A stretch of DNA of 64,000 bases from the NCBI GenBank assembly GCA_028687585.1, contig JAQTZV010000002.1, positions 186,001-250,000 on the forward strand. Reading direction: 5' to 3'. Made by a program: the position numbers and the translations under genes. This DNA is from Desulfuromonadaceae bacterium. GTDB lineage: Bacteria; Desulfobacterota; Desulfuromonadia; Geobacterales; Pseudopelobacteraceae. Under the pieces are notes generated by a model, which was not told the origin of the DNA, did not search any database, and worked only from the letters and a program-made list of their open reading frames with translations. Below are positions 42,477 through 60,108 of the stretch, one piece after another (within the stretch, counting starts at the first letter, position 1; each line of letters opens with the position of its first letter).

Positions 42477-42502
42477 AACATTATTTCAGCGATGCCTGTT
42501 TT

Positions 42503-42527
42503 ATATGGCGGTTGTGTCGTATATGAC
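42503..42527 (+). promoter_or_regulatory. Candidate enhancer-binding-protein site (UAS copy 1)
   Basis: A 25-base element starting ATATGGCGGTT and ending ATATGAC, identical at 20 of 25 positions to the element at 52789-52813. It lies 120 bases upstream of a sigma-54 core. It contains the dyad TGTC-GTATAT-GACA (42514-42527 plus the next base). The paired spacing argues for an activator site. Confidence 0.65.
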
Positions 42528-42622
42528 AGCTCTCGCAGGCAATATCTCCGGATAAAATCCCTAAACAGTCAGTTTACCCTGCACAGACGGGTAGTTGTAA
42601 TAATATGATTCCCGGTTTTTTA

Positions 42623-42637
42623 TGGCGTGATAATTGC
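42623..42637 (+). promoter_or_regulatory. Sigma-54 promoter of the hibernation-factor gene
   Basis: TGGCGTGATAATTGC matches the -24/-12 consensus TGGCAC-N5-TTGC with exact spacing. It ends 41 bases before the HPF-like start. The same 15 bases occur at 52912-52926. Confidence 0.85.
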
Positions 42638-42678
42638 GGTTATCTCTCTGTAATAAATATACCTGAGGAGGAGTACAC

Positions 42679-43065
42679 ATGCAGATCAACATCAATACTG
42701 ATCGAAACATAGATGGACGCGAGGCGCTGACCAGGCATATCAGCAGCGAAATTGAGCAGTCCCTGAGCCGCTTCAACGAACAGATCACCCGGGTGGAGGT
42801 GCACCTGAGCGATGAAAACAGCGACAAGAAGGGGGGGAAAGACGGAATGAAGTGCGTTATTGAAGCCCGCCTTGCAGGCCGACAACCCCTGGCTGCTACT
42901 CATCAGGCCACAACTCTGGAACAGGCCTTCAGCGGCGCCGCAGACAAGGTAACCCGATTGATCGAGAGTGTCATTGGACGGACAGGAAATCAGCGGGGTC
43001 ACAGGGCTGATCCGCCTCCCTCCGGTCTGGATATTCCGGAAGATGAGGAAAATGTTGATTTGTAG
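42679..43065 (+). CDS. Short HPF/RaiA-family ribosome hibernation factor
   Basis: 128 residues. The first 100 fit the HPF/RaiA fold (MQININTDRNIDGREALTRH, then RVEVHLSDEN and CVIEARLAGRQPLAATHQA). It binds the 30S A and P sites to silence ribosomes in stress. It lacks the C-terminal dimerisation domain of long HPF and instead has a Pro-rich acidic tail (PEDEENVDL). Many Geobacteraceae should have a separate long HPF next to rpoN, so this is probably a stress-specific paralogue. GAGGAGG lies before the ATG, and a sigma-54 promoter lies 41 bases upstream. Confidence 0.85.
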   Translation: MQININTDRNIDGREALTRHISSEIEQSLSRFNEQITRVEVHLSDENSDKKGGKDGMKCVIEARLAGRQPLAATHQATTLEQAFSGAADKVTRLIESVIGRTGNQRGHRADPPPSGLDIPEDEENVDL

Positions 43066-43078
43066 AAGTTGAAGAACC

Positions 43079-43261
43079 CGCATCCGGCAGAACCTGTTCT
43101 TCGCCTTCTTTTACAACACGGCCGGGGTGCCGATTGCGGCAGGGGTGATGTTTCCGCTCTTCGGGATACTGCTGTCGCCGATGATCGCTGCGGCAGCTAT
43201 GAGTTCCAGCTCCGTTTCCGTGATCACCAATTCGCTGAGACTGAAGCGGGTGAAATTATAA
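43079..43261 (+). pseudogene. copA: C-terminal fragment of a copper-type P-type ATPase (CopA)
   Basis: From 43079 the frame reads [40 protein letters not shown] and [17 protein letters not shown], then TAA. This is the last membrane-helix pair of P1B copper ATPases. The preceding 700 or so residues are missing, and the fragment begins 13 bases after the HPF-like stop, without a start codon. It is a decay remnant or deletion scar. Another frame over the same bases stays open (43069-43293), but it is spurious. Confidence 0.87.
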
Positions 43262-43289
43262 ACTGCGACGGCAGCATATCGGAGAGCCT

Positions 43290-44618
43290 GTGAAAACCAA
43301 ACTCTTTAACTTCTGGCACTCGTTCCGCTCCAGTTACTGGTTCGTGCCGACAGTCATGGCGGTTGTTTCCATAGCTCTTTCCTTCTGCACGACTACTATA
43401 GACGACGTTCTCTCCCGCGACATTTCAGAAAAGATCGGCTGGCTCTACAGTGGTGGTCCGGAGGGTGCCCGCTCCATCCTGTCCACGGTGGCCGGGTCCA
43501 TGATCACCACTGCCGGGGTGGTCTTCTCCATTACCATTGTCGTCCTCTCTCTTACCTCCTCCCAATTCGGCCCGCGACTGCTCGGCAATTTCATCCGGGA
43601 CACCGGCATACAGGTGGTTCTCGGCACATTCATTGCCACCTTTATTTACTGTCTGCTCACGCTTCGGGTGGTTCGAAGCGGCGACAGCGGTTTGTTTGTT
43701 CCCAACCTCTCGATCACCATTGCCTTTATCTTGGCACTGGCAAGCACCGTCGTTCTCATCTACTTCATCCAACACGTCGCCACCGCAATTCAGGCCGACA
43801 GCATCATCTCCGCCGTTTACCGCGACCTGGAGGCCGGCATCGACCGTCTTCTCCCGGAGCAGCAGGAACATGCGGTTGATGAACCGGGCCATAATGACAT
43901 CAGGGCTGCTCTCCCGGCGAAATTCGACCTTGAAGGGTGGCCGGTTGCGGCGGAGAATAGCGGCTACCTTCAGGCAATCGATTACGACGGTCTGACGAAC
44001 GCGGCCATCGAGAGCGATCTTTTACTCCGCCTCCACTTCCGGCCGGGGGAGTTCATCGCTGCGGGGGAGCAGCTTCTCACACTCTGGCCACGGGAACATT
44101 GGGACGAAAAGCTGACCGCACGGGTGAATGGCTCCTTCATCCAGGGGCGGCAGCGAACCGACGAGCAGGACATGGAGTACTCGGTGAATCAACTCGTGGA
44201 GGTCGCCCTGCGTGCCCTTTCACCCGGCATCAACGATCCCTTTACCGCCATGACCTGTATCGACTGGCTCAGCGCGGCCCTCGGGCATATCACCCAGCGG
44301 AAGTTTCCTTCTGCGCTTTGCTACGACGAAAAAGGGGCTCTCCGCCTCGTGTTGGTCCCGCTTTCCTACGTTGAAATAGTGGAGTCAGCTTTCGGACAGA
44401 TACGGCGCGCCGCCGCCAGCCACGTGCAGGTGATCCTCTGCCTTCTCGGCGCGATAGCCGCCATTGCCCCCCATATCCGGGTGGAGGAGCGTCGCAAGGT
44501 ACTCGAGCATCATGCTGCCATGGTGGCGCAGAGCGGGAGACATTTGGCCCATCTAAAGGATGACCGGCAGGCAATTGAAGAACGCTACCAACTGACTCTG
44601 CAGGCTCTCCGCAGGTGA
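43290..44618 (+). CDS. DUF2254 integral membrane protein
   Basis: 442 residues from a GTG with GGAGAG nine bases ahead. Four membrane helices lie in residues 15-165 (TVAGSMITTAGVVFSITIVV, LSLTSSQFGPRLLGNF), which are the DUF2254 signature. A soluble C-terminal region follows, with ALSPGINDPFTAMTCIDWL near residue 310. Function is unknown. It lies directly behind the CopA remnant and before a proton antiporter, in the ion-homeostasis block. Confidence 0.88.
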   Translation: MKTKLFNFWHSFRSSYWFVPTVMAVVSIALSFCTTTIDDVLSRDISEKIGWLYSGGPEGARSILSTVAGSMITTAGVVFSITIVVLSLTSSQFGPRLLGNFIRDTGIQVVLGTFIATFIYCLLTLRVVRSGDSGLFVPNLSITIAFILALASTVVLIYFIQHVATAIQADSIISAVYRDLEAGIDRLLPEQQEHAVDEPGHNDIRAALPAKFDLEGWPVAAENSGYLQAIDYDGLTNAAIESDLLLRLHFRPGEFIAAGEQLLTLWPREHWDEKLTARVNGSFIQGRQRTDEQDMEYSVNQLVEVALRALSPGINDPFTAMTCIDWLSAALGHITQRKFPSALCYDEKGALRLVLVPLSYVEIVESAFGQIRRAAASHVQVILCLLGAIAAIAPHIRVEERRKVLEHHAAMVAQSGRHLAHLKDDRQAIEERYQLTLQALRR

Positions 44619-44762
44619 GATGGCAGGTTGGACGGCAAAAGCAGGTAACAAATTATTTTCTGCGTCTTTCAGGCTGAAAATGTTTTGGCTTACGCACTAC
44701 CTGTGTATATCGGACATTTGGTGTATCAGAGCAGCGGAATGCCTCAATGAAAAGGAATATCA

Positions 44763-46577
44763 ATGACTGACCCGACGATGCACATAACCGGCTTCATTGT
44801 AATCGTGGCTGTTCTGGGTATCAGTGCGCAGTGGCTGGCGTGGCGTTTCCGGCTCCCCGCCATCCTCCTGCTTTCGCTTGCCGGGCTTGCGGCCGGCCCC
44901 TGGCTCGGTTTGATCAAGCCCGGTGAACAACTCGGCGCTATGCTGAATCCCCTTGTCGGTCTGCTGGTGGCCTTTATCCTTTTTGAAGGAGGGATGAATC
45001 TCAAGTTCCATGAACTCAGGCAGGCCGGACCGGGAGTAACGCGACTGGCCACAGTTGGCGTGGCGATAACCTGGATTCTGGGAAGTAGCGCCGCACATTT
45101 TGTCGGCGGCCTTTCCTGGCCGGTAGCAGTACTTTTTGGCGCCATCATTGTTGTCACGGGACCGACCGTCATCATGCCGATGTTGCGCCAGGCGAGGCTC
45201 GGGCAGCGTCCGGCCTCATTGCTCAAATGGGAGGGGATCATCAATGATCCCGTCGGCGCTTTGCTGGCGGTGCTGGTGTTCGAGTATTTTCTTTATCGGG
45301 GAACAGGTGCTGCTGTTTTCCAGGTACTGACCGGAGTGGCTGCCGCTCTCGCCGCTGCAGTAATTCTGGGTATTGGCGGAGGTTACCTGCTGGGCAAAGC
45401 GTTCATTCGAGGCGATGTTCCTGAGTTTCTGAAGGCACCACTGACGCTTGCCTATGTCCTTCTTTGTTACGGACTTGCCAATCTGGCCCAACACGAAGCA
45501 GGGCTGCTTGCAACCACCCTGCTGGGAATAACCCTCGGCAACATGCGCCTGCGCAGCGTCGACGAGTTGCGGCGGCTCAAGGAATATGTATCCATCCTGA
45601 TGGTGTCCGGTATTTTCGTCATTCTGACCGCTAATCTTGATCCTTACATATTGACCCGGCTGGATTGGCGCAGCGGACTTCTGCTGGCCCTCGTCGTGTT
45701 TGCGGTGCGACCGGTTTCAGTCATGGTGTCCACCGTGGGACTGGGTATGGCCTGGCGAGAGCGTGTGCTTCTGGCCTGGATTGCCCCGCGAGGGATTGTC
45801 GCGGTCACTGTGGCCGGTGTGTTCGCTTCGCTCATGGCCGAGCAGGGTTACCCCGGCGCCGATCTGCTGCTGCCCCTGATCGTCTCCCTCGTGCTGATTA
45901 CCGTTGTGCTGCATGGATCAACCATCGGCTGGCTGTCGCGCCGACTGGGGCTGGCTGCAGCGAGCCAGAACGGCATTCTTGTGGTGGGTGCTTCCAACTG
46001 GAGCATTGAGCTTGCCCTGCAACTGAAGGAAATGGAGATACCGGTGCTGATTGCTGATTCAAGTTGGTACAATATGAGTCGGGCACGTCAATTAGGCCTT
46101 CGCACACATCATGGGGAAATTCTCTCCGAACATGCGGAAGTGTCGCTGGAACTCAACGACATGGGGTTTGTGCTGGCTACTACCGCAAACGATGCCTACA
46201 ACGCCTTCGTCTGCATACAATATGCGGCCGATTTTGGGCGCACGCATGTTTTTCAGCTCCCCATACATATAGACGGCGATACACAGAATAAAATGAGTAT
46301 CAAAAATACTCTACGCGGAGTATTTGCCTTTGGACCATCGGCAACAAACGAAGAATTGGAACACCGGCATCATCAGGAATGGCAATTTCATAAGACGCGA
46401 ATCACTCATGAATATTCCTATGAAAAGCATCAACAGGCAACAACCGACGATGTGCTGCTGATACTGTTACTACGCCCGGATGGGACGGTTTTGTTCAATT
46501 CCGAGCAATTTCCGCTGGAACCGGCAGAGAACGACATTCTGCTGAGTTACCAGCCTCCTTTGCCGGGGAAACAGTAA
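44763..46577 (+). CDS. CPA1 cation:proton antiporter with C-terminal TrkA-N-like domain
   Basis: 604 residues. Residues 1-390 form about twelve helices: [46 protein letters not shown], and [18 protein letters not shown] with the conserved N-D ion site. This is the NhaP/CPA1 pattern. A Rossmann domain ([19 protein letters not shown], about 405-520) follows, then about 80 residues of soluble tail. It should exchange Na+ or K+ for H+. AAAAGGAA lies before the ATG, and the PPK2 gene follows by 14 bases. Confidence 0.9.
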
Positions 46578-46591
46578 TTGGAGGTCAAATT

Positions 46592-47455
46592 ATGAAAATA
46601 GAAATCAATAATTTCCGTGTACAGGAAGGTGAAAAGGTCAAACTCGAAAAGTGGCCGACTCAGGTGAAGAAGGTTTACTCGTCAAAGAAGAAGTACCACA
46701 AACATCTCAAAGAACAGGTGGAGGAATTGAGTTCGCTACAGCGTCTTCAGTACGCATCCAACCAATATGCGGTACTGCTGATTTTTCAGGCGATGGATGC
46801 CGCCGGCAAGGACGGTGCCATCCGCCATATCATGTCCGGTGTCAATCCACAAGGGTGCCAGGTGTTCAGTTTTAAACACCCATCGGCCATGGAACTGGAA
46901 CACGATTTTCTTTGGCGCACCTCTCAGTGTCTGCCGGAACGGGGTCGGATCGGAATCTTTAATCGATCCTATTATGAAGAGGTGCTTATCGTTCGAGTGC
47001 ATCCTGAGATCCTGCGCAGTCAGGGGCTTCCAGACCCGTTGCTTGATGAAAAAACTGTCTGGAAGGAGCGCTATCGCTCAATTGCAGATCTGGAGGAACA
47101 TCTCCATCGCAACGGAACCCGGATTCTCAAGTTCTTCCTGCATCTTTCCTGGGAGGAACAGCGTAAGCGATTTATTGACCGTATCGATGACCCTGAAAAA
47201 AACTGGAAATTCAGTCCTGCCGACATCGAAGAGAGAAAATTCTGGAAACAGTATATGCTGGCCTATGAAGCGTGCCTGAGCGCAACGAGTACGAAAAATG
47301 CGCCCTGGTATATTGTCCCAGCCGACAACAAAAAGAACACCCGGCTGATAATTTCCCAGATAATTCTCGATACGTTCAACTCCCTCAACATGCATTACCC
47401 GGAAACCTCCGAAAAGTGCCGACAGGAATTGGAATCTATTCGCAAACAGCTCTGA
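46592..47455 (+). CDS. PPK2-family polyphosphate:nucleotide phosphotransferase
   Basis: 287 residues. A P-loop kinase with Walker A in [17 protein letters not shown] near residue 70 and the lid and acidic motif [19 protein letters not shown] near 128. [15 protein letters not shown] is also typical. It moves phosphate between polyphosphate and nucleoside mono- or diphosphates; the N-terminal pattern fits the subgroup that phosphorylates nucleotides from polyphosphate. That would supply ATP or GTP under stress, and a link to the N-ATPase cluster is inferred. GGAGG precedes the ATG; it is in one unit with the CPA1 gene. Confidence 0.92.
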
Positions 47456-47576
47456 AGGTAAGCCAATGAGAACAAGTAGGCCGGAAACGAGTGATCAAAA
47501 GCGTAGAATGGATGACCGGTCGTAATGAGGCAGCGTTATTGAAAGCTGCAGGTTCTTTTGAACCGAAGCAGGTGTC

Positions 47577-48947
47577 ATGCTCGATTATTTGATCAAATCT
47601 GTAGGCTCCCTCGGTCATTGGGGGTACCTTGTTATTTTTCTTGTCGTGGCGCTTGAATGCCAGGCGTTATTGGGCCTGGTCATGCCTGGCGAGAGCCTGG
47701 TGCTGGCAGGAGGCTTCTTAGCGTATCAGGGGGTATTCGACCCGGTTCTCCTTGTCATGGTGATATCCATCGCAGCTATTCTCGGAGACAGTATCGGCTA
47801 CGAACTGGGTCGGCATCTGGGCCGGGGATGGCTGTTGAAACACGCGGGACATCTCCGGCTACGGCAGGAGACTCTGGATCGAGTGGATGCTTTTTTAGAT
47901 ACACATGGCGGCAAGGCGGTATTCGGCAGTCATTTCCTGCACCTGTTGCGTGCGCTGATGCCCTTCGTCGCGGGTGACCGCCGCATGCGCTACGGGAAGT
48001 TCCTCCTCTTTAATGCAATAGGCTGCGTTGTCTGGGCGAGCGTGTTTGTTCTGCTTGGCTATGCAGCAGGAGAGAGTTGGCGTGTGGCGGCAAAATGGGT
48101 CGGTATCGCCAGCGAAATCCTGGGTGGCGCACTCCTGCTTGTCGTCGCATTGGGCTTGCTTTGGCGCTGGGCGGGGCGGCACGAGGACGATATCAGACAA
48201 CGCTGGCATGGGGTTACGGAACATCCGCGCGTGGTTGCCCTGCGCCGAAAGTTTGCTCCCCAATTGGCTTTCCTTCTCGAACGTCTGTCACCAAGCGGTT
48301 TTCTGGGACTTCATCTGACGATTGGAGTTTTGTTCATCATCGGTGCAACCTGGCTGTTCGGTGGCATTGCCCAGGACGTGATCGCCGGTGACCCATTGAC
48401 ACTCATTGACAAGAACATCGCTGAGTGGTTTCACCAGCGCCGGACTCCCGAGATGACATCAGCGATGCAACTCATATCCGGTCTTGCCTCGCCAACCTGG
48501 GTGACGGTAGTCACACTAATTACAGCGCTCGTCCTGTTGTGGAAGCGTTACTGGTATCGGTTAACGGCTTTGGTGCTTGTCCTGCCATGCGGGATGGTAT
48601 TGGATGTTCTCCTTAAAATTATGTTCCATCGTCAACGCCCACGGTTTGCGGATTCGTTTCTGACCTTCCACGGTTACAGTTTCCCGAGTGGTCACACCAT
48701 GGCGGCCACGTTGCTGTATGGCCTGCTGGCTGTTTTTTCAGTCACTGCGCTCAAAGCCTGGCGTTGGCGAGTCGGGGCAGTTCTCGGCGCGTTCGTCATG
48801 GTTCTGCTGGTTGGCTTTAGCCGGGTGTACCTTGGTGCTCATTATCTGAGTGATGTGTTGGGAGCCGCTGCCGCAGGTTTGGCCTGGTTGGCGTTGTCTC
48901 TTACTGCAGTGGATACTCTGCGTCGAAATCGTGCCCGCTCAGGATAA
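47577..48947 (+). CDS. DedA-PAP2 fusion membrane protein
   Basis: 456 residues. The N-terminal 200 are a DedA/VTT domain (ALLGLVMPGESLVLAGGFLA; GDSIGYELGRHLGRG; GSHFLHLLRALMPFVAG). The C-terminal 200 are a PAP2 phosphatase with K-x6-R-P (KIMFHRQRP), PSGH and S-R-x5-H-x3-D (SRVYLGAHYLSDV). PAP2 members dephosphorylate undecaprenyl pyrophosphate or phosphatidate; DedA members flip undecaprenyl phosphate. The fusion suits carrier-lipid recycling across the membrane. ATG with AGGTG upstream. It sits 121 bases after PPK2. Confidence 0.9.
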   Translation: MLDYLIKSVGSLGHWGYLVIFLVVALECQALLGLVMPGESLVLAGGFLAYQGVFDPVLLVMVISIAAILGDSIGYELGRHLGRGWLLKHAGHLRLRQETLDRVDAFLDTHGGKAVFGSHFLHLLRALMPFVAGDRRMRYGKFLLFNAIGCVVWASVFVLLGYAAGESWRVAAKWVGIASEILGGALLLVVALGLLWRWAGRHEDDIRQRWHGVTEHPRVVALRRKFAPQLAFLLERLSPSGFLGLHLTIGVLFIIGATWLFGGIAQDVIAGDPLTLIDKNIAEWFHQRRTPEMTSAMQLISGLASPTWVTVVTLITALVLLWKRYWYRLTALVLVLPCGMVLDVLLKIMFHRQRPRFADSFLTFHGYSFPSGHTMAATLLYGLLAVFSVTALKAWRWRVGAVLGAFVMVLLVGFSRVYLGAHYLSDVLGAAAAGLAWLALSLTAVDTLRRNRARSG

Positions 48948-49043
48948 ACAGTGAACAAGCGCAGGCGGTTGTTCCAACTAATCTAAGACAAGAGGGGGAT
49001 ACGTTTTAACTACAACGGTATGCTCCGAAAGTCAGGAGGAAGG

Positions 49044-52000
49044 ATGTTAGCAGGTATCACACTCTCACCGCAGGACTACGATGCCGTTCTGTTCGATCTC
49101 GACGGTGTGCTGACCAAAACGGCGCGTGTGCATGCTGCTGCCTGGAAAAAGCTGTTTGACAGTTTTCTCGAACGGCGTGCCGCCCGGACAGGAGAACCGT
49201 TCGTCCCCTTTGTCCTCTCCAGCGACTACCCACGCTACGTTGACGGAAAACCACGCAATGACGGCGTGGTGGACTTCCTTGCATCACGCGGGATTGCACT
49301 CCCATTGGGTGCGCCGGATGACGGTCCCGACGTTGAAAGCGTCTGTGGGCTCGGTAATCTGAAGCAAGGGTATTTTCTCCAGCATCTGGAGCAGTTCGGC
49401 GTCGAATCCTATGAAGAGTCCATAGCGTTGGTGCGAAAACTCCGGAGAGCCGAGATCAGGACCGCCGTAGTTTCCGCAAGCTCCAACTGCACAGCGGTAC
49501 TCGAAGCGGCGGGTATCGCGCAGCTGTTCGACGTGCAGGTGGACGGTACTGATGTCTCAAGGCTCAAGCTCAAGGGGAAGCCGGCTCCGGATTCTTATCT
49601 GGAAGCGGCACGGCGGTTACGGGTTGATCCGTTGCGCGCGGTAGTTGTTGAGGACGCGATTGCCGGCGTTGCGGCCGGACACAACGGCCATTTCGGATGT
49701 GTCATCGGAGTCGACCGGAGCGGGCAGGCGGCGGCACTGCGAAAAGCCGGTGCCGATGTCGTGGTCACCGGTCTGTCGCAACTGCAGATTACGGAGGAGC
49801 CTCCTTCCACGTGGTCAATTGTGTTTGATGGATTCGATCCTCAACAAGAGGGCATTCGCGAGGCTCTCTGCACTCTGGGGAACGGCTATTTCGCAACGCG
49901 CGGAGCGGTTGCAGGCGTAGCAGCGGACGACGTTCACTATCCGGGCACGTATCTCGCCGGCGGCTACAATCGGCTCAGCACCGACATCGCCGGCCGCGTG
50001 GTAGAGAATGAGGATCTGGTAAATTTCCCCAACTGGCTGACGCTCGAATTTCGCGTCGCCGGAGAGGAGTGGTTCGATGTACGGTCCGTTAAAATCCTGT
50101 CATACCGTCTGGAGCTTGATCTGCGACGTGGAAAGCTGTTGCGGAGCATCAGTTTCGAGCATGGCCAGGGACGTCACAGTACTCTCAAGGAGCGTCGTCT
50201 TGTATCGATGGCCGATATGCACATGGGTGCGTTGGAATTGTCACTGACTGCTGACAACTGGTCGGCCGGTGTCACCGTGCGTTCGGCGATAGACGGGCGG
50301 ATTGTCAATGCGGGGGCGAAACTGTACCGCAGGTTCAACAACGTGCATCTGGAACCGCTAGCCGGCGCTGTCGTCGGTGAAGATGGCGTGTACCTGGAGA
50401 TGCGAACCAGTCAGTCACATATTCATGTTGCACAGGTGGCGCGCACCCGGCTGTTCAAGGGCGGGCAGTTGCTGGATGTCCCGCGCAGGACAATTGAGGA
50501 ACCCGGGTTCATCGGACAGGAACTCGATGTCGAAGTCAGGCTGGGCGAAACAGTGGTGCTGGAAAAGCTGGCCTCTTTTTATACCTCTCGCGACCCCGCA
50601 ATTTCGGAGTGCGGTCTGGAGGCGCACAAGTCGATAGCCCGCGCAGGTACCTTCGATACCCTGCTGGCGAGCCATCTGCTTGCGTGGAAGCATCTGTGGC
50701 ATCGCTTCGGAGTGCATATTCTGTCGGCAGATCCCGGCTTCAAGGTGAACGTCCTGCAGCTCCTCCGCTTGAATATGTTTCATCTGCTGCAGTCTGTTTC
50801 ACCAAACTCGATCGGTCTGGATATCGGCATACCTGCACGGGGGTGGACCGGAGAAGCGTATCAGGGACATATATTCTGGGATGAACTCTTTATCTTCCCG
50901 TTTTTCAACTATCGGATGCCTGAAATCACCCGATCGCTGCTGCTGTACCGCTATCGACGTCTGGGAGAGGCGCGCGCCGCAGCTGCGGCGGCCGGATACA
51001 GGGGAGCTATGTTTCCGTGGCAGAGCGGAAGTGACGGTCAGGAGGAGACCCTGACGTCCAACCTGAACCCGCGTTCGCAGCGCTGGGTTACCGACAACTC
51101 CTTTCTCCAGCGCCATGTAAGTAGCGCCGTCGCATTTAACGTCTGGCAGTACTTCCAGGTGACCCATGATATTGAATTTCTGCACTCCTACGGTGCTGAG
51201 ATGATTCTCGATATCGCACGTTTCTGGTCCAGCATCACTCATTTTAATGATGAGCGGGAACGCTACGAGATTCACAGAGTGATGGGACCGGATGAGTTTC
51301 ATGACGGTTATCCGGATTCCGCAACCCCCGGTCTCAACAACAATGCCTATACCAATATTATGGCGGTTTGGGTCCTCTGCAGGGCGTTGGAGGTTCTCGA
51401 CCTGTTGTCCGATGTCCGTCGTGCCGAGCTGACGGTGCGACTTGGCCTGTTGGCTCCGGAGTTGGAACGCTGGGATGACATCAGTCGCCGGATGTTTGTT
51501 CAGTTCCATGACGACGGAATAATCAGCCAGTTTGAGGGGTACGAAAAGCTGCGGGATCTTGATTGGGAGGGGTATCGAACCAGGTACGGCAATATCCAGC
51601 GGCTCGATCTCATTCTCGAAATGGAGAACGACAGTGCCAACCACTACAAGCTCTCGAAGCAGCCGGATGTTCTGATGCTGTTCTACCTGTTTTCAGCAGA
51701 GGAGATCGGCGAATTGTTCGAGCGCATGGGGTATCCCTTCGAGTACGGCACCATCCCCCGCAATGTTTCGTACTATGCAAGCCGTTCATCTCACGGCTCC
51801 ACGCTGAGCCGTGTGGTATATGCCTGGGTCCTGGCGCGTTCCGACCGGCCGCGCGCGATGGAGTTCTTTGCACAAGCGCTGCAGAGCGATACGAGTGATG
51901 TCCAGCAGGGCACTACCGCGGAGGGCATCCACCTCGGTGCCATGGCAGGTAGTGTCGATCAGATACAGCGCGTATCGACCGGTATCGAAGCAAGAGGCGA

Positions 52001-52268
52001 TGTTCTGCACTTTGCTCCGGAATTACCGCTGGAGATGGAGCGGCTCGACATGCGCATCCGCTATCGCGGGCATTCACTCGATCTGCGGCTGACACGGGAT
52101 TCGCTCACGGTTCGTGGGCATGATGCTGCTGAGCCGCCGTTTTCCTTGTGTGTAGACGGTGAAGTCTGCGAATTCGTCAGTGGCTCCACCCGTGTGTTTC
52201 AATTAGCAAATAAAGCAGCGGGAAATCCGGGGAGAATCCCTCAAGGCCGCTATCGATGGAAAAAATGA
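49044..52268 (+). CDS. HAD (beta-phosphoglucomutase type) - GH65 phosphorylase fusion
   Basis: 1074 residues. Residues 10-240 are a HAD phosphatase/mutase domain (VLFDLDGVLTKTARVH, VVSASSNCTAVL, KGKPAPDSYLEAA, VVEDAIAGVAAG) like beta-phosphoglucomutase. The rest is GH65: FDGFDPQQEGIREALCTLGN, WDELFIFPFF, and the general acid Glu in MGPDEFHDGY near 750. GH65 phosphorylases split trehalose, maltose or kojibiose with phosphate to beta-glucose 1-phosphate, which the HAD part could convert to glucose 6-phosphate. The exact disaccharide is not readable; trehalose fits treZ nearby. ATG 49044 follows AGGAGG closely; 49020 is an alternative. Confidence 0.9.
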   Translation: MLAGITLSPQDYDAVLFDLDGVLTKTARVHAAAWKKLFDSFLERRAARTGEPFVPFVLSSDYPRYVDGKPRNDGVVDFLASRGIALPLGAPDDGPDVESVCGLGNLKQGYFLQHLEQFGVESYEESIALVRKLRRAEIRTAVVSASSNCTAVLEAAGIAQLFDVQVDGTDVSRLKLKGKPAPDSYLEAARRLRVDPLRAVVVEDAIAGVAAGHNGHFGCVIGVDRSGQAAALRKAGADVVVTGLSQLQITEEPPSTWSIVFDGFDPQQEGIREALCTLGNGYFATRGAVAGVAADDVHYPGTYLAGGYNRLSTDIAGRVVENEDLVNFPNWLTLEFRVAGEEWFDVRSVKILSYRLELDLRRGKLLRSISFEHGQGRHSTLKERRLVSMADMHMGALELSLTADNWSAGVTVRSAIDGRIVNAGAKLYRRFNNVHLEPLAGAVVGEDGVYLEMRTSQSHIHVAQVARTRLFKGGQLLDVPRRTIEEPGFIGQELDVEVRLGETVVLEKLASFYTSRDPAISECGLEAHKSIARAGTFDTLLASHLLAWKHLWHRFGVHILSADPGFKVNVLQLLRLNMFHLLQSVSPNSIGLDIGIPARGWTGEAYQGHIFWDELFIFPFFNYRMPEITRSLLLYRYRRLGEARAAAAAAGYRGAMFPWQSGSDGQEETLTSNLNPRSQRWVTDNSFLQRHVSSAVAFNVWQYFQVTHDIEFLHSYGAEMILDIARFWSSITHFNDERERYEIHRVMGPDEFHDGYPDSATPGLNNNAYTNIMAVWVLCRALEVLDLLSDVRRAELTVRLGLLAPELERWDDISRRMFVQFHDDGIISQFEGYEKLRDLDWEGYRTRYGNIQRLDLILEMENDSANHYKLSKQPDVLMLFYLFSAEEIGELFERMGYPFEYGTIPRNVSYYASRSSHGSTLSRVVYAWVLARSDRPRAMEFFAQALQSDTSDVQQGTTAEGIHLGAMAGSVDQIQRVSTGIEARGDVLHFAPELPLEMERLDMRIRYRGHSLDLRLTRDSLTVRGHDAAEPPFSLCVDGEVCEFVSGSTRVFQLANKAAGNPGRIPQGRYRWKK

Positions 52269-52288
52269 AAACCAAAGGAGACCGACAG

Positions 52289-52762
52289 ATGCGCAAGTCA
52301 TTGATTACTGAATTATCTCAGGAAGCTGAACTTCCAGAGCAGAATTGGCTGGACCTCTTAAAGACAGCTCGTGCGGAACTCACTTCAGAGGACCCGGCAC
52401 ACCCGATCGAATCAGCATTGAACCGGTCAGGGGGGTCCGGCTGGCGGGCAAAGGGGCCTGGCACGCAGACGATCCGTTTGCTGTTTGATGAACCGCTACA
52501 GATCAGGCATATTAATCTGGTTTTTCTCGAGAATGAGCTGTCGCGGACTCAGGAATTCGTAGTGCGGTGGTCCACGGATGCGGGACGCTCCTTCCGGGAG
52601 ATTGTGCGACAGCAGTATACTTTTGCTCCTCCCGAAACAACTCGGGAAATAGAAGACTATATGGTCGATCTCTTCGGGGTGGCGGTGCTCGAACTGATCA
52701 TTCTCCCTGATATCAACGGGGGAGAGAGTTGCGCTTCGCTTTCGGTATTGCGCATTGCCTGA
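52289..52762 (+). CDS. Small protein with discoidin/carbohydrate-binding-like beta fold
   Basis: 157 residues from ATG 52289, with AAGGAG ahead (a longer frame begins inside the GH65 gene). After a helical N terminus, the sequence GSGWRAKGPGTQTIRLLFDE and IRHINLVFLEN, then QEFVVRWSTDAGRSFREIVR resembles F5/8 type C/XRCC1-N-like beta sandwiches. LELIILPDINGGESCASL near the end closes the fold. No catalytic motif. It follows the GH65 fusion by 20 bases and could bind the same glycan. I know no named family for it. Confidence 0.65.
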   Translation: MRKSLITELSQEAELPEQNWLDLLKTARAELTSEDPAHPIESALNRSGGSGWRAKGPGTQTIRLLFDEPLQIRHINLVFLENELSRTQEFVVRWSTDAGRSFREIVRQQYTFAPPETTREIEDYMVDLFGVAVLELIILPDINGGESCASLSVLRIA

Positions 52763-52788
52763 CGCACTGCTTCTGTGTTACCCGTCAC

Positions 52789-52813
52789 ATATGGCGGTTA
52801 TGTATGGTATGAC
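52789..52813 (+). promoter_or_regulatory. Candidate enhancer-binding-protein site (UAS copy 2)
   Basis: A 25-base element starting ATATGGCGGTT and ending GTATGAC, identical to 42503-42527 at 20 of 25 positions. It begins 123 bases upstream of the second sigma-54 core. The 120 versus 123 base spacing and the identity suggest the same activator. Confidence 0.65.
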
Positions 52814-52911
52814 GGATTCAACGGGAGGTTTCCCCTGAACCAAACATTCCTTATGTATATTTTCCCCCATACAATCAAACTGTTGTGCTCCAACGGCCCG
52901 CTCATTTTTTC

Positions 52912-52926
52912 TGGCGTGATAATTGC
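52912..52926 (+). promoter_or_regulatory. Sigma-54 promoter of the BON lipoprotein gene and possibly the N-ATPase
   Basis: TGGCGTGATAATTGC, identical to 42623-42637, with correct -24/-12 spacing. It ends 40 bases before the BON lipoprotein start. With no terminator seen before atpD, it may also drive the ATPase operon. Confidence 0.85.
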
Positions 52927-52966
52927 GTTTTACCTTTCTTAGTATATTATTTCGGGGAGGTGTCAC

Positions 52967-53281
52967 ATGAAAAAAGTGCTGCGTATTACGAAACAGTTGG
53001 TCTGTCTCAGTTTGCTAACCGTATTCCTGGGATGCAATGCCACACAAAAGAAAGAAAGTACCGGTGAGTATATCGATGACTCCGCTATCACAGCCAAAAT
53101 AAAATCCGGGCTCTTTGAAGATGCAAAGCTGAAATCATTGCAGATCGAAGTCAAGACGTTCAAAGGGATAGTACAGTTAAGCGGATTCGTTGATTCGGTG
53201 CAGAGTTTGACATCGGCTGGTGAAATTGCCGGACGCGTTCAGGGTATCAAGGAGTTGAAAAACGACCTGGTTGTAAAATGA
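52967..53281 (+). CDS. BON-domain lipoprotein
   Basis: 104 residues. Lipoprotein signal ending FLGC. One BON domain (DDSAITAKIKSGLFEDAKLK, then VKTFKGIVQLSGFVDS and GRVQGIKELKNDLVV), as in OsmY. BON proteins bind phospholipid surfaces and are induced by osmotic and envelope stress. The Shine-Dalgarno is GGGAGG. It follows a sigma-54 promoter by 40 bases and precedes atpD by 71 bases without a visible terminator, so co-expression with the N-ATPase is likely. Confidence 0.9.
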   Translation: MKKVLRITKQLVCLSLLTVFLGCNATQKKESTGEYIDDSAITAKIKSGLFEDAKLKSLQIEVKTFKGIVQLSGFVDSVQSLTSAGEIAGRVQGIKELKNDLVVK

Positions 53282-53337
53282 GTTTTGCCCGGAAAGTTTA
53301 TGTACGCTCTGATTAACCTAACCAACTTCAACGATGA

Positions 53338-55154
<1,817 letters not shown>

Positions 55155-55162
<8 letters not shown>

Positions 55163-55487
55163 CAAACCGACCGGAAAAGCATCGAAAGAGAGTCCGACCT
55201 TCAGCGATCAAGTGGGGGATAAAGTTTCACGCAAGCTTAAAGCTCGCCGCAATTCCTCCGCGGGTGTCTGGTTCGGTCTGGGGATGATGGGTCTTATCGG
55301 CTGGTCTGTGGTTGTCCCGACGCTGCTCGGTGCGGCGCTCGGTATCTGGCTGGATAAACAGCATCCTGGGGCACATTCCTGGACACTGGCGCTGTTGGTT
55401 GTCGGTCTGGCAATCGGCTGTATCAATGCCTGGCATTGGGTAGACAAAGAAGACAGGGCAATGCGGGAGGAGGATAGAGATGAGTGA
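55155..55487 (+). CDS. atpQ: N-type ATPase subunit AtpQ (AtpI-like)
   Basis: 110 residues. A basic N terminus is followed by two membrane helices (VWFGLGMMGLIGWSVVVPTL; LALLVVGLAIGCINAW), as in AtpI/Q proteins thought to help c-ring assembly or cation uptake. It overlaps atpC by 8 bases and atpR by 8 bases. Identified mainly by position and topology. Confidence 0.85.
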
Positions 55488-55791
55488 AATAGCGACATTG
55501 GTCCTAGCGTGGCTGGCAGGCGGAGTCATCGGTATCTTCTTTTTCGGTGGTCTCTGGTGGACGGTTCGCAGGGCGGTTACGGCAAATCAGCCGGCACTCT
55601 GGTTCTTTGGCAGTATGCTGCTGCGGATGGGCATTGCCCTGGCTGGATTTTATGTCGTCTCAAACCGTCATCTGGACCGGCTGCTGTTATGCCTGCTCGG
55701 TTTTTTCCTGGCGCGTATGGTCGTGATGCGGTTTACCCGAACGCCGGAAAAGCCGACATGCCTGACAGAGAAGGTCAGCCATGCGCCTTAG
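55480..55791 (+). CDS. atpR: N-type ATPase subunit AtpR
   Basis: 103 residues with three membrane helices. AtpR is found only in N-ATPase operons. The third helix is preceded by an N-R-H-L-D-R motif, and Arg residues lie in FLARMVVMRF and LLRMGIALAGF, matching the conserved in-membrane Arg residues proposed to contact the c-ring Glu. GGAGGA precedes the start. It overlaps atpQ by 8 bases and atpB by 11. Confidence 0.9.
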   Translation: MSEIATLVLAWLAGGVIGIFFFGGLWWTVRRAVTANQPALWFFGSMLLRMGIALAGFYVVSNRHLDRLLLCLLGFFLARMVVMRFTRTPEKPTCLTEKVSHAP

Positions 55792-56464
55792 TCCCGACGA
55801 GATAATCTTCTGGCAGCACGGGTTTTTCAAGCTCAACGCCACCATTCTGTTTACGTGGGGAGTGATGCTTATACTGGCTGTCGGTTCAAAACTGGTCACG
55901 CACAGACTTTCCACCGATCTGAATCGCACCCGCTGGCAGAACCTGCTGGAAATAATTGTCACCGCCATCATGAAACAGATCAAAGAAGTCGGCCTTCACC
56001 ATCCCGAGAAATATATCGGTTTTCTGGGGACACTGTTTCTGTTTGTCGGCACTGCTGCTCTCTGTACCGTCATTCCCGGCTATGAGCCGCCGACCGGTTC
56101 GCTCTCTACTACAGCGGCGCTTGCGCTCTGCGTGTTTGTGGCTGTGCCGCTTTTCGGCATTGAGGATCAGGGCGTGAGCGGTTACCTCAAATCATATGTA
56201 GAGCCAACGGTCGTCATGCTGCCGTTTAACATAATCAGCGAAATTTCACGCACACTGGCGCTTGCTGTCCGTCTCTTCGGCAACATGATGAGCGGCGCGA
56301 TGATTATCGGAATTCTGCTCAGCATTACCCCCTTTATTTTTCCGGTTGTCATGACGCTACTCGGTCTACTCACCGGCATGGTGCAGGCCTATATTTTCAG
56401 TATTCTGGCTGCGGTCTACATTGCAGCCGCAACAAAGGCAAGGAAAGAGAAGATAGAAGGCTGA
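55781..56464 (+). CDS. atpB: N-type ATPase subunit a
   Basis: 227 residues, five or six helices. The essential stator Arg is in ALAVRLFGNMMSG near residue 165. The start is MRLSPDEIIFWQHGFFKLNA, typical of N-ATPase a subunits. It forms the ion half-channels. After it, a repeat-rich 98-base gap precedes the c subunit, in contrast to the overlaps elsewhere in the operon. Confidence 0.95.
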   Translation: MRLSPDEIIFWQHGFFKLNATILFTWGVMLILAVGSKLVTHRLSTDLNRTRWQNLLEIIVTAIMKQIKEVGLHHPEKYIGFLGTLFLFVGTAALCTVIPGYEPPTGSLSTTAALALCVFVAVPLFGIEDQGVSGYLKSYVEPTVVMLPFNIISEISRTLALAVRLFGNMMSGAMIIGILLSITPFIFPVVMTLLGLLTGMVQAYIFSILAAVYIAAATKARKEKIEG

Positions 56465-56538
56465 AGGCTGAAGACTGAAGGGAAAACAGGCTCTTGAAGT
56501 CGTTTTTAACCTTCTGCCTTCTGCCTAAAACCTTCAAC
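56454..56538. repeat. Inverted repeat-rich insert between atpB and atpE
   Basis: GGCTGAA/GACTGAA units on the left (56454-56482) face CCTTCTG/CCTTCAA units on the right (56510-56538), allowing an imperfect stem of about 25 bases around a T-rich loop. It is the only real gap within the operon and could shield or process the message before the highly expressed c-subunit gene. The units resemble dispersed chromosomal repeats. Confidence 0.6.
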
Positions 56539-56562
56539 CTGATTTACAAAAGGAGATACTCC

Positions 56563-56844
56563 ATGGACAGCATGACTATTATTGCGGTGGCATCAATTGT
56601 CATTGCCGGCATCACCACCGGTTTCGGCACTATGGGGCCGGCTCTGGCGGAAGGAAAAGCGGTCTCCACTGCGCTGAGTTCGCTGGCCCAGCAGCCTGAT
56701 GCCTCTGCCACCATTACCCGGACGCTGTTTGTCGGTCTGGCGATGATCGAATCTACGGCCATCTACTGCTTCGTAGTCTCGATGATTCTTATCTTTGCAA
56801 ACCCGTTCTGGAACCACGCCATCGCACTGGCAACAGGGAAATAA
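56563..56844 (+). CDS. atpE: N-type ATPase subunit c (probable Na+ binding)
   Basis: 93 residues from ATG 56563 with AAAGGAG 9 bases ahead (open frame from 56494). A hairpin of two helices. Helix 2 has E63-S64-T65-x-x-Y68, the spacing of Na+ ligands in known sodium c-rings. In helix 1, P26 replaces the usual Gln, and E30 may act as a second acidic residue, as in other N-ATPases. The GKAV...QQPDA loop is canonical. I infer Na+ specificity; residues are consistent but not proof. Confidence 0.95.
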   Translation: MDSMTIIAVASIVIAGITTGFGTMGPALAEGKAVSTALSSLAQQPDASATITRTLFVGLAMIESTAIYCFVVSMILIFANPFWNHAIALATGK

Positions 56845-56847
56845 TCC

Positions 56848-57657
56848 ATGTTAATCGACTGGTTCACCGTCATTGCCCAGGCACTCAACTTCCTCATTCT
56901 GGTCTGGTTGATGAAACGCTTTCTATACAAGCCGATCCTGCGTGCCATTGACCAGCGGGAGAAGCTTATTGCAGCGGAACTGGCTGATGCCGCCGCGACA
57001 AAATCCGATGCCCAAAAGGAGCGCGACGAGTTTCAGCATAAGAACGAGATCTTCGATCAGCAACGTGCCGCGCTTTTTAGTAAAGCAACGGACGAGGCGA
57101 AGAGCGAACGCCGGCGACTCATGGATGAGGCTCGGCAGGCGGCTGACGATTTGAGTGCCAAACGCCACGAAAACCTGAAAAACGATGCCCAAATCCTGAA
57201 TCAGGCCATCATTCATCGAACGCAGCAGGAAGTTTTCGCCATTGCACGAAAGGCGCTGGCTGATCTCGCCGGTACGTCGCTGGAAGAGCGCATGCTTGAT
57301 GTCTTTCTCGGCAGGTTGAAGACACTTGACGGAGAAGAGAAGGAACAGCTGACCTCCGCGATCAAATCCACGCAGAATCCTGTTGTTGTTCGTACCAGGT
57401 TTGATTTTTCTTCGGCGCAGTCTGCCGCAACTGAAAGCGCCATCAAGGACTTGTTTGGCGCGGAAAGACAAATCCGCTTCGAGACCGATTCTGAGCTGAT
57501 CAGCGGCATTGAACTGGTCACGGACGGGCACAAGGTTGCATGGAGTATCACGGATTATCTTACGTCAATGGAAAACGGTATCGCTGAACTGCTTGAAGAC
57601 AAGGACAAACCGGAAGCTGACGTTGCACCGGCACCCGAGGATGAACATGGCGCCTGA
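56848..57657 (+). CDS. atpF: N-type ATPase subunit b (long, with delta-like tail)
   Basis: 269 residues. One N-terminal helix ([15 protein letters not shown]), then a long charged coiled coil to about 135. The C-terminal 130 residues ([17 protein letters not shown], then [13 protein letters not shown]) resemble the end of a delta subunit. Ordinary b subunits are about 160 residues, and no atpH is present in the operon, so this subunit probably replaces delta as the peripheral stalk connector, as in other N-ATPases. Confidence 0.93.
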
Positions 57658-59200
57658 AAGCCTTCAAACGGTAATTGATAGCGCGTTTTCCGAAATACGC
57701 CAGGTGAGGGAATCGTTCACTCCGCAACTTAAGCCGCTGGAGGTGGGAAATATTACCAGTGTCTCCACCGGTATTGCCAAAGTGTCTGGTCTCCCCGGTG
57801 TGGGCTTTGACGAATTGGTGACGTTTCCCGGAGGCCTGCTTGGTATTGCATTCAACGTGGATGCGGACGAACTCGGTGTTGTCCTGCTCGGCGGATACTG
57901 GCACCTCAATGCCGGAGATGAAGTAAAACGCACGGGGAGGGTAATGGACGTCGGTGTGGGTGACGGCTTGCTGGGCCGCGTCATCGACCCGCTCGGCAGG
58001 GCACTTGACGGTAACGGGCCGGTTGTTTGCAGCAGTCGCCTTCCCATCGAGCGTCCCGCGCCGCCGATCATGGAACGCGCCCCCGTAACCGTGCCGCTCC
58101 ATACCGGTCTTAAAGTTGTTGATGCGCTTATTCCGATCGGCCGCGGCCAGCGCGAACTGATTCTGGGCGACCGGCAGACCGGGAAAACAGCCATTGCGAT
58201 CGACACCATCCTCAATCAGCGGGATCAGGAAGTTCTATGCGTGTATTGTGCCATCGGCCAGCGCGCTTCCGCCGTGGCGAAATCCGTGGCAACCCTGCGG
58301 GAAAAAGGGGCGCTGGATTACACCGTCGTGGTTGTGACCGAGGGGAACGACCCCCCGGGACTTGCATACATTGCTCCGTACGCCGCTACCAGCATTGCGG
58401 AATATTTCATGGAAGCGGGGCGGGATGTGCTGATCGTGTACGACGACCTCACTCATCACGCTCGTGCCTATCGCGAGCTTTCTCTCCTGCTGCGCCGTCC
58501 GCCAGGTCGCGAAGCATTTCCCGGTGACATTTTCTATATCCACTCGCGACTGTTGGAACGCGCTACTCATCTGTGCAGGGAACGCGGGGGCGGTTCACTC
58601 ACCGCCCTGCCCATAATAGAGACCGAAGCGCAGGACATCTCCGCCTACATTCCTACCAACCTGATATCCATCACTGATGGACAGATATACCTCTCGCCGT
58701 CGCTGTTTGAACTGGGTGTGCTGCCCGCTGTGGATGTCGGAAAATCCGTTTCGCGCGTCGGCGGAAAGGCCCAACTGGCGGCATACCGGGCGGTGGCGGG
58801 AGACCTCAAACTTTCCTACGCGCAGTTCGAGGAACTCGAGACGTTTGCCCGTTTCGGTGCACGACTGGATGAAGACACCCGGAAGATTATTGAGCATGGA
58901 AGACGTATCCGCGCCTGTCTCAAACAATCGGAATTTGCCCCGGTGCCCGTTCCCGCGCAAATTGCTGTACTGCTGGCGTTGACCACAGGTCTCTTCGATA
59001 ACATTCCTCTTGAACGGATGACGGACGCCGAGCAGTCTCTGCTCAAGGCAGCGACAGCAATTCCAGTGGAGGTGAGCAAGCGATTGGATAGTGCCGACAA
59101 GCTGAGCGATGAGGATCGAGAAACAATAGTTCGGATCGCCCGCAATGTGCTTGCCGGCTTTCAGCCGACAGGGAAACCGGAAGTTGAGAAGAAGCAATGA
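57647..59200 (+). CDS. atpA: N-type ATPase subunit alpha
   Basis: 517 residues from ATG 57647 (GAGG six bases upstream, overlapping atpF by 11; the frame opens at 57509). Walker A is [13 protein letters not shown] near residue 170, followed by [36 protein letters not shown] is the conserved alpha Arg-finger region. It is a non-catalytic hexamer partner of AtpD. ATG 57641 is an alternative start two codons earlier. Confidence 0.95.
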
Positions 59201-60108
59201 GCAACTCCACTGCAGATCTGCGCAGAAAAATAGACGGTGCCGGTGATCTTCAGTCCGTCGTTCGCACGATGAAGGCTCTGGCTGCCTCAAACATCGGACA
59301 ATACGAACAGTCGGTGCGCTCATTAGCCGACTACTTTTCCTCAGTGGAAGCCGGGTTGGGCGTCTGCTTCCGGGAACTCGGTCCGATAGTAAAAAGAACA
59401 GAAGCGATTCAGCGGGACAGTTCTCTTGAAATCAGCGCGGTTGTATTCGGTTCCGATCAGGGGTTGGTGGGACGTTTTAACGATGTAATTGCCGATCATG
59501 CGATTAAGATCCTTGCTGACCTTCCGGGGACACCTCGTGTCTGGGCCGTAGGTGCACGGGTGAATGCGCGTCTGGAAGACGCAGGGGTGCCGCTGTCAGG
59601 ACTCTTCGCCGTGCCGAATTCCGTCGGGAGCATCACCCCGCTCATTGCGCAGATTCTCGTGGAGAGTGAGTCACAGCGCGCTTCTCCGGCCATGTTCGAG
59701 ACAGGCCGGGACGAAACCGCTGAACTGCATCTCTTCTACAACCGTCCCACCTCCGGGGCCGTGTATGAACCGCTGCATCAGCGGCTGTTACCGCTGGATA
59801 TCAGCTGGCAGCGCGAACTTGCCCGTCGCTCCTGGCCAACAAAGATTCTGCCCGAGGTACTGGGGGGAACTATTGAGACACTGCGGTCGCTGATCCGCGA
59901 ATATCTCTTCGTTTCTCTTTTTCGTGCCTGTGCAGAATCTCTGGCGAGCGAGAACGCGAGCCGCCTGGCGGCAATGCAGCGCGCCGACAAAAACATCAAC
60001 GAACTGCTGGAGGACCTGGACGGGAAATATCATCGTTTGCGGCAGAGCGGTATCGACGAGGAGCTGTTTGATGTCATATCCGGCTTTGAAACGCTGACAG
60101 GGTCGTAA
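59197..60108 (+). CDS. atpG: N-type ATPase subunit gamma
   Basis: 303 residues. N-terminal helix [20 protein letters not shown], central Rossmann-like part ([17 protein letters not shown]) and C-terminal helix ([20 protein letters not shown]) fit a diverged gamma. It is the rotating central stalk. It overlaps atpA by four bases and closes the operon; 43 bases separate it from treZ, with no clear terminator. Confidence 0.94.

Follow-up and report, generated by a model that had tools for sequence, protein, structure and literature searches.

The stretch of DNA studied here (the window) comprises 64,000 nucleotides of a Desulfuromonadaceae bacterium genome (GCA_028687585.1, contig JAQTZV010000002.1, positions 186,001 to 250,000). 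It contains two similar sigma-54-type promoters about 10 kb apart, one upstream of a gene for an HPF-like protein, and the other upstream of a gene for a BON-domain lipoprotein, which is followed by genes for an N-type ATPase (Table 1). A preliminary description of the window, made from the sequence alone, had proposed that a shared enhancer-binding activator serves both promoters, in a small regulon linking translation arrest with ion pumping. The positions it gave were reproduced. Both copies of the 15-base core, at 42623 and 52912, are exact; the related 25-base elements, at 42503 and 52789, are identical at 20/25 positions and begin 120 and 123 bases upstream of the cores; and the start codons, placed about 40 bases past the cores, lie at 41 (HPF-like) and 40 (BON) bases. 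Both cores have GG at −24 and GC at −12 with 10-base spacing, conforming to the consensus TGGCAYG-N4-TTGC, and both elements lie within the 80–150-base range used for activator sites.

Table 1. Promoter elements and genes of the two window promoters, and the candidate activator genes on contig C41 of the same genome.
Feature	Position	Strand	Basis or remark
Upstream activator element before HPF-like gene	42496..42529	+	Paired inverted repeats CTGTTT-TATA-TGGCGG, GTGTCG-TATA-TGACAG
Degenerate AGACGGGTAGTTG where other promoters have IHF-like site, HPF promoter	42585..42597	+	Alignment of 19 promoters
Sigma-54 core TGGCGTGATAATTGC before HPF-like gene	42623..42637	+	Exact copy; profile alignment
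HPF-like S30AE protein, 128 aa, first gene after promoter	42679..43065	+	PF02482
Upstream activator element before BON gene	52782..52815	+	Paired inverted repeats CCGTCA-CATA-TGGCGG, ATGTAT-GGTA-TGACGG
IHF-like site AATCAAACTGTTG, BON promoter	52873..52885	+	39 bases before core; 9/9 match to WATCARNNNNTTR
Sigma-54 core TGGCGTGATAATTGC before BON gene	52912..52926	+	Exact copy; identical in three relatives
BON-domain lipoprotein, 104 aa, first gene after promoter	52967..53281	+	PF04972, E = 3.6e-14
N-type ATPase genes beta, epsilon, Q, R, a, c, b, alpha, gamma	53353..60108	+	ORF order, Pfam
EBP1 (candidate activator)	C41:53297-54847		Receiver, AAA+, Fis HTH; directly after 1392-aa CHASE3-PAS hybrid kinase
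EBP2 (candidate activator)	C41:63631-65349		AAA+, Fis HTH; no receiver domain found

The exact 15-base core occurs twice in the 5.47 Mb genome, both times in the window. Allowing up to 3 mismatches, 2 window occurrences were found against 2.26 expected, and the pattern TGGC-N8-TGC gave 15 matches against 13.6 expected. The core alone was therefore rejected as a promoter marker, its mismatch-tolerant frequency being at chance level. A refined 27-base version of the upstream element occurs twice in the window, against 0.01 expected. Scanning the whole genome for the element (up to 3 mismatches), as the preliminary description had suggested, returned 14 sites, all 14 with a sigma-54 core 104–125 bases downstream; 10 of the 14 lie on contig C41, and a control with the reversed pattern gave 4 sites.

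A profile spanning element to core, R1, was built from 19 promoters including both window sites, in all of which the element-to-core distance is 104–125 bases; training excluded C41:25922, C41:27119, C41:63384 and C50:9322, whose elements are shared or reversed. A leave-out version, R2, was built from the 17 promoters outside the window. With R2, the two window sites were the top two matches in the 64 kb (BON promoter 63.1 bits, E = 1.3e-18; HPF promoter 43.2 bits, E = 2.1e-12). A third match at 32186 (13 bits, E = 0.005), partial and within an opposite-strand ORF, was taken as chance. In the 5.5 Mb genome, R1 detected at least 37 promoters at E < 1e-6, a rough E-value as for all models of this type. 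Nineteen of them are the training sites; of the 18 that are new, 15 are spread over 11 contigs other than C41. Site counts here and below are lower bounds, because the profiles scored 150 (own genome), 80 (genus) and 22 (order) candidates per genome. The regulon is thus not the small one first supposed.

Alignment of the 19 promoters showed three conserved blocks, the upstream element, the core and, about 39 bases ahead of the core, a middle block, separated by poorly conserved spacers. The element consists of two side-by-side inverted repeats with 4-base spacers and centres 18 bases apart, followed by a single TGACRG half-site. Arm complementarity is 0.61 and 0.54 for the two repeats and 0.55 for a third overlapping register between them, compared with 0.10–0.38 for other registers. 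Sites for integration host factor (IHF) are common, though not obligatory, between an activator site and a sigma-54 core. The middle block resembles the IHF consensus WATCARNNNNTTR quoted for Geobacter work (PMC7962754). Once the two weakest of the 39 R1 matches (28.2 and 23.6 bits) were left out, 17 of 37 promoters matched this consensus at 9/9 positions and 14 at 8/9 (31/37 together), and the best match lay 37–41 bases before the core in 29/37. For the site at the BON promoter, the shuffle p was 0.0 of 200. Several divergent promoter pairs share or abut one element (for example C41:25696−/25922+ and C41:26892−/27119+). In locus coordinates, pairs of this kind were recorded at L020 17682-17936 and 18878-19133, L085 9954-10272 and 13940-14207, and L025 4809-5089.

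The promoter family is not confined to this genome. Within the genus, R1 matches (E ≤ 0.001) were found in 31 of 39 genomes, with at least 1 to 42 each; in the other eight, no match at this threshold was found among the 80 candidates scored. Across the order, matches at E ≤ 1e-4 were found in at least 76 of 141 genomes and 16 of 29 genera. An exact-core search of 39 relatives returned 3 matches beyond the genome's own two, all upstream of a BON gene and sharing the element at a nearly equal distance from the core; with 3 matches, the exact core is too strict a marker to reveal the regulon. The upstream element, whose lack of conservation in relatives the preliminary description had named as a refutation, recurs in relatives at a fixed distance from the sigma-54 core.

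No relative of the candidate activators described below is encoded in the window (tblastn, E ≤ 1e-3), in line with the earlier statement that the window lacks an activator gene. The likely activators are two paralogous enhancer-binding proteins (EBPs), EBP1 and EBP2, encoded within the densest promoter cluster. This cluster, C41:8001-86000 (L020-L023), also encodes three ice-binding-like (DUF3494) proteins; the source organism is not known as cold-adapted. EBP1 and EBP2 contain the sigma-54 interaction domain PF00158 (E = 1.4e-70 and 6.5e-70) and the Fis-type helix-turn-helix (HTH) PF02954 (E = 2.4e-8 and 3.9e-7), and are identical at 39/45 residues of the HTH end.

The EBP subfamily, with membership defined as a best match of at least 71% identity, is present in 24 of the 39 same-genus genomes. 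Four or more R1 sites occur in 23/24 genomes with the subfamily and 3/15 without it, and ten or more in 21/24 and 1/15, respectively (Mann–Whitney p = 7e-7 for site number over the 39 genomes, a value that overstates independence because the genomes are related). The sole genome lacking the subfamily with more than 10 sites, G043, has EBP1 only as an N-terminal fragment, truncated by the contig end; this split places it among the genomes lacking the subfamily, together with G002, which has a 59%-identity match at E ≤ 1e-100. For EBP1 alone, with G043 counted in, at least 4 sites occur in 22/22 genomes with the gene and 4/17 without it. R1 sites are found no more than 1.5 kb from EBP1 in 12/21 loci and from EBP2 in 7/9 loci, and the kinase gene, in part, lies beside EBP1 in 18/21 loci. 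A protein search listed 120 EBP1 homologs at 78% identity or above, with generic names where given; named relatives belong to Geobacter sp. UBA6802, Geobacteraceae GWC2_55_20 and Geomesophilobacter sediminis, which suggests that the order is Geobacterales. In G. sediminis, three R1 matches lie no more than 6 kb from an EBP homolog. R1 matches were found in 2 of the 24 named-genome EBP loci searched (24 of 80 loci). Together, the recurrence of the element at a fixed core distance and the co-occurring EBP subfamily support the proposal of a shared enhancer-binding activator.

Besides the relatedness of the genomes, several observations weigh against assigning both window promoters to a regulon of EBP1 and EBP2. 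At the HPF promoter, the best IHF-consensus match is just 7/9 and is located elsewhere in the promoter. No subfamily EBP was found in G013, G050 and G018 (7, 5 and 3 sites) or in G005, G010 and G009 (2, 1 and 1 sites), and G018 and G050 carry an activator of another type, encoded on contig C6 and discussed below. The reverse case is G019, which has the subfamily yet one site, and no R1 match was found in the stretches examined around EBP1 homologs of 75–81% identity at the named-genome loci L155, L156, L159 and L163. Moreover, both EBP1 and EBP2 carry GAFTGS in place of the canonical GAFTGA (L022 5297-6844 and 15631-17346); GAFTGA substitutions are reported in 12 of 37 Desulfovibrio vulgaris EBPs (PMC4641369).

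Downstream of the 39 R1 matches, a start codon with a Shine–Dalgarno-like run was present within 340 bases in 30 cases. Twenty target proteins of the 39 promoters were scanned against Pfam, and 16 matched a family at E ≤ 0.01: OmpA, DUF4398, BON, ice-binding-like (three), PEP-CTERM, collagen-like, glycine zipper, AsmA, phospholipase-D-like, small multidrug resistance, alpha/beta hydrolase, STAS, DUF302 and an iron–sulphur oxidoreductase domain. By family, or by a signal or lipobox judged by eye, 15 of the 20 look exported or membrane-linked, which is in keeping with the proposal that sigma-54 controls the exterior of the bacterial cell (PMC3162934) and does not bear out the theme of translation arrest linked with ion pumping.

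The two window loci fit this picture unequally. The HPF-like protein passes PF02482 (S30AE; 41.8 bits against a cut-off of 23.7, E = 1.8e-10) and falls below the NCBIfam HPF model TIGR00741 (30.8 against 40.9 bits); its earlier naming as a ribosome hibernation factor calls for caution. Its gene is present in 7 of the 39 genomes, and the promoter before it is complete in this genome alone: in G043 the element is present but no core can be recognised (29.1 bits), G003 matches weakly (14.1 bits), G006 has an R1 match about 1.1 kb further upstream, and no R1 match was found in the HPF upstream regions of G011, G022 and G045. The HPF promoter was thus rejected as a conserved link. Between 36670 and 52762, the window has same-strand stress-type genes, for exchangers (PF00999 at 44763), DUF2254, PPK2, VTT-PAP2 and GH65 with HAD, and the HPF promoter might read through part of this run. 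A frame at 43090-43260, between the HPF-like and DUF2254 genes, resembles the C-terminal end of a CopA-like P-type metal ATPase and may be what remains of one.

The BON promoter is conserved, with an identical core, in four genomes (this one and three relatives). In the window, the ATPase genes begin 71 bases past BON with no terminator-like site between them (terminator scan of 52700-53400), suggesting that BON and the ATPase are co-transcribed. The gene order is D-C-Q-R-B-E-F-A-G without delta, as expected for an N-type ATPase, with beta, a, c, alpha and gamma assigned by Pfam and the other four (epsilon, b, Q, R) assigned from where they lie in the gene order. Downstream of BON in G003, G006 and G012, no N-ATPase protein was found within 10.9, 11.2 and 9.6 kb (tblastn, E ≤ 1e-10); as it follows BON in 1 of 4 BON-promoter genomes within the stretches examined, the ATPase was rejected as a conserved target. 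In G012 (L301 9902-17000), the BON promoter is followed by genes for a universal-stress-type protein and a second PPK2-like protein, and two more R1 promoters lie within 6 kb. The c subunit encoded in the window (56494-56844) has two carboxylates, in PALAEGK and IESTAIY. The Burkholderia pseudomallei N-type ATPase, whose c subunit likewise has two carboxylates, has an H+-specific c-ring (PMC5376962), and ion specificity is for this reason not readable from the sequence: the BON gene is followed by N-type ATPase genes, in a probable operon as first described, and their designation as sodium-type is not established. With both the ATPase after BON and the complete HPF promoter found here alone, their pairing looks like a recent addition to the regulon, not its purpose.

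This bears directly on the explanation first offered, a small regulon coupling ribosome hibernation to ion pumping. The two window promoters do share an identical core that is absent elsewhere in the genome, but the family has at least 37 promoters with targets of other kinds, the N-ATPase was not found in the roughly 10 kb searched downstream of BON in the three relatives, and the HPF promoter is complete in 1 of 7 genomes, leaving this explanation barely credible. Nor does it seem at all probable that the element is a dispersed multicopy repeat without a regulatory role. Many multicopy intergenic sequence families are listed for Geobacter genomes (PMC2996986, PMC2700814), but here only the inverted repeats, the IHF-like site and the core are well conserved, the spacing to the core is fixed, the copies track an activator gene, and 30/39 matches are followed by a start codon of the kind noted above.

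Among regulatory explanations, another EBP might read the element, either the NtrC-type C6 activator or the more distant FhlA-like paralogs encoded on contigs C16 and C39. In its favour, an R1 promoter lies about 0.2 kb beyond the end of the C6 activator gene, two of the three main exceptions (G018 and G050) carry a homolog of that gene, and a few genomes have sites without an EBP1 or EBP2 homolog. Used as a control, however, the C6 activator occurs in 9/39 genomes and does not track site number (p = 0.17), and identity to EBP1 at the HTH end is 13/41 for C6, 23/45 for C16 and 25/44 for C39. As main regulator, the C6 activator was rejected by co-occurrence and kept as a minor possibility, and we consider this class of explanation unlikely. 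Less likely still is that the promoters belong to the PEP-CTERM system, in which the response regulator PrsR and kinase PrsK act on sigma-54 promoters of exopolysaccharide-associated genes. Some targets have PEP-CTERM or matrix-like domains, and the general layout of upstream motif and sigma-54 core is the same (PMC1569441), but the Prs motif ends in TTTACA and averages 63 bases from motif 2 (PMC1569441), whereas the GTCA/TGAC inverted repeats start about 120 bases upstream. With the PrsR model TIGR02915, whose cut-off is 502.6 bits, EBP1 reaches 343, EBP2 318 and the C6 activator 346.5. The Prs system was rejected on motif, spacing and score.

We therefore favour, with a probability of roughly three in four, the reading that both window promoters belong to a large sigma-54 regulon with EBP1 and EBP2 as likely activators and mostly envelope, matrix and stress targets. 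The roughly 37 promoters probably co-activate cell-surface, matrix and stress genes under one activator family. Activator oligomers would occupy the two inverted repeats, some 120 bases ahead of the core, IHF would bend the DNA between element and core, and the AAA+ domain of the activator would open the sigma-54 holoenzyme at the TGGCAYG-N4-TTGC core. With EBP1 encoded behind a CHASE3-PAS kinase and EBP2 receiver-less, two signals, one of them from a two-component system, would act through one element. The regulon would mostly serve envelope, extracellular-matrix and stress proteins, with the BON lipoprotein as a recurrent target, and HPF and the N-ATPase as additions seen in this genome. More tentatively, and with the balance of our judgment slightly against it, this could be an order-wide envelope, matrix and stress programme run on sigma-54 in place of an ECF or RpoS-type factor, with two differently sensing paralogs acting on one tandem element, and with the N-ATPase and HPF genes captured by it.

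A look-alike promoter pair thus opens onto a regulon that can be tested, with its cis element named and its candidate activators proposed. Dozens of EBPs are present in Geobacter relatives. The literature examined, available in part, assigns no comparable target set to any of them. Many exported proteins without an assigned function fall within the regulon, so that its signal would tell their purpose, and the two-activator design offers a clean case of how paralogous activators share or divide one element.

No description of the element was found in the available portions of the literature, and it might be among the entries of the supplementary multicopy-sequence tables for G. bemidjiensis and G. 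metallireducens. One related setting is the RpoN regulon of Geobacter sulfurreducens, a related organism with many sigma-54 promoters, in which deletion of rpoN did not succeed (Leang et al. 2009, PMC2725144), and for which an IHF consensus between activator site and promoter is the layout to be expected (PMC7962754); the accessible parts of these RpoN and IHF accounts do not describe such a shared element or envelope regulon. D. vulgaris EBP regulons likewise tie activator motifs to sigma-54 promoters, some with TGT/ACA half-sites, but their motifs have spacings of 9, 11 or 12 bp, and a TGAC-type tandem inverted repeat was not seen in the parts available (PMC4641369, PMC3333781). FhlA-type EBPs give the best NCBIfam scores for EBP1 (404 bits) and EBP2 (396), over AAA+ and HTH, though both are far under the FhlA cut-off of 830, and EBP1 differs by its receiver domain and kinase partner. 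The N-type ATPase resembles that of B. pseudomallei in its nine-gene operon and its c subunit (PMC5376962). The nearest parallel in design is the PrsK/PrsR PEP-CTERM regulon, likewise found by phylogenetic profiling (Haft et al. 2006, PMC1569441), which combines a sigma-54 promoter family, an upstream motif, a response-regulator activator with a kinase, and surface targets. In comparison, the regulon proposed here has another motif and spacing, activators under the PrsR cut-off, a broader range of targets, and a second, receiver-less activator.

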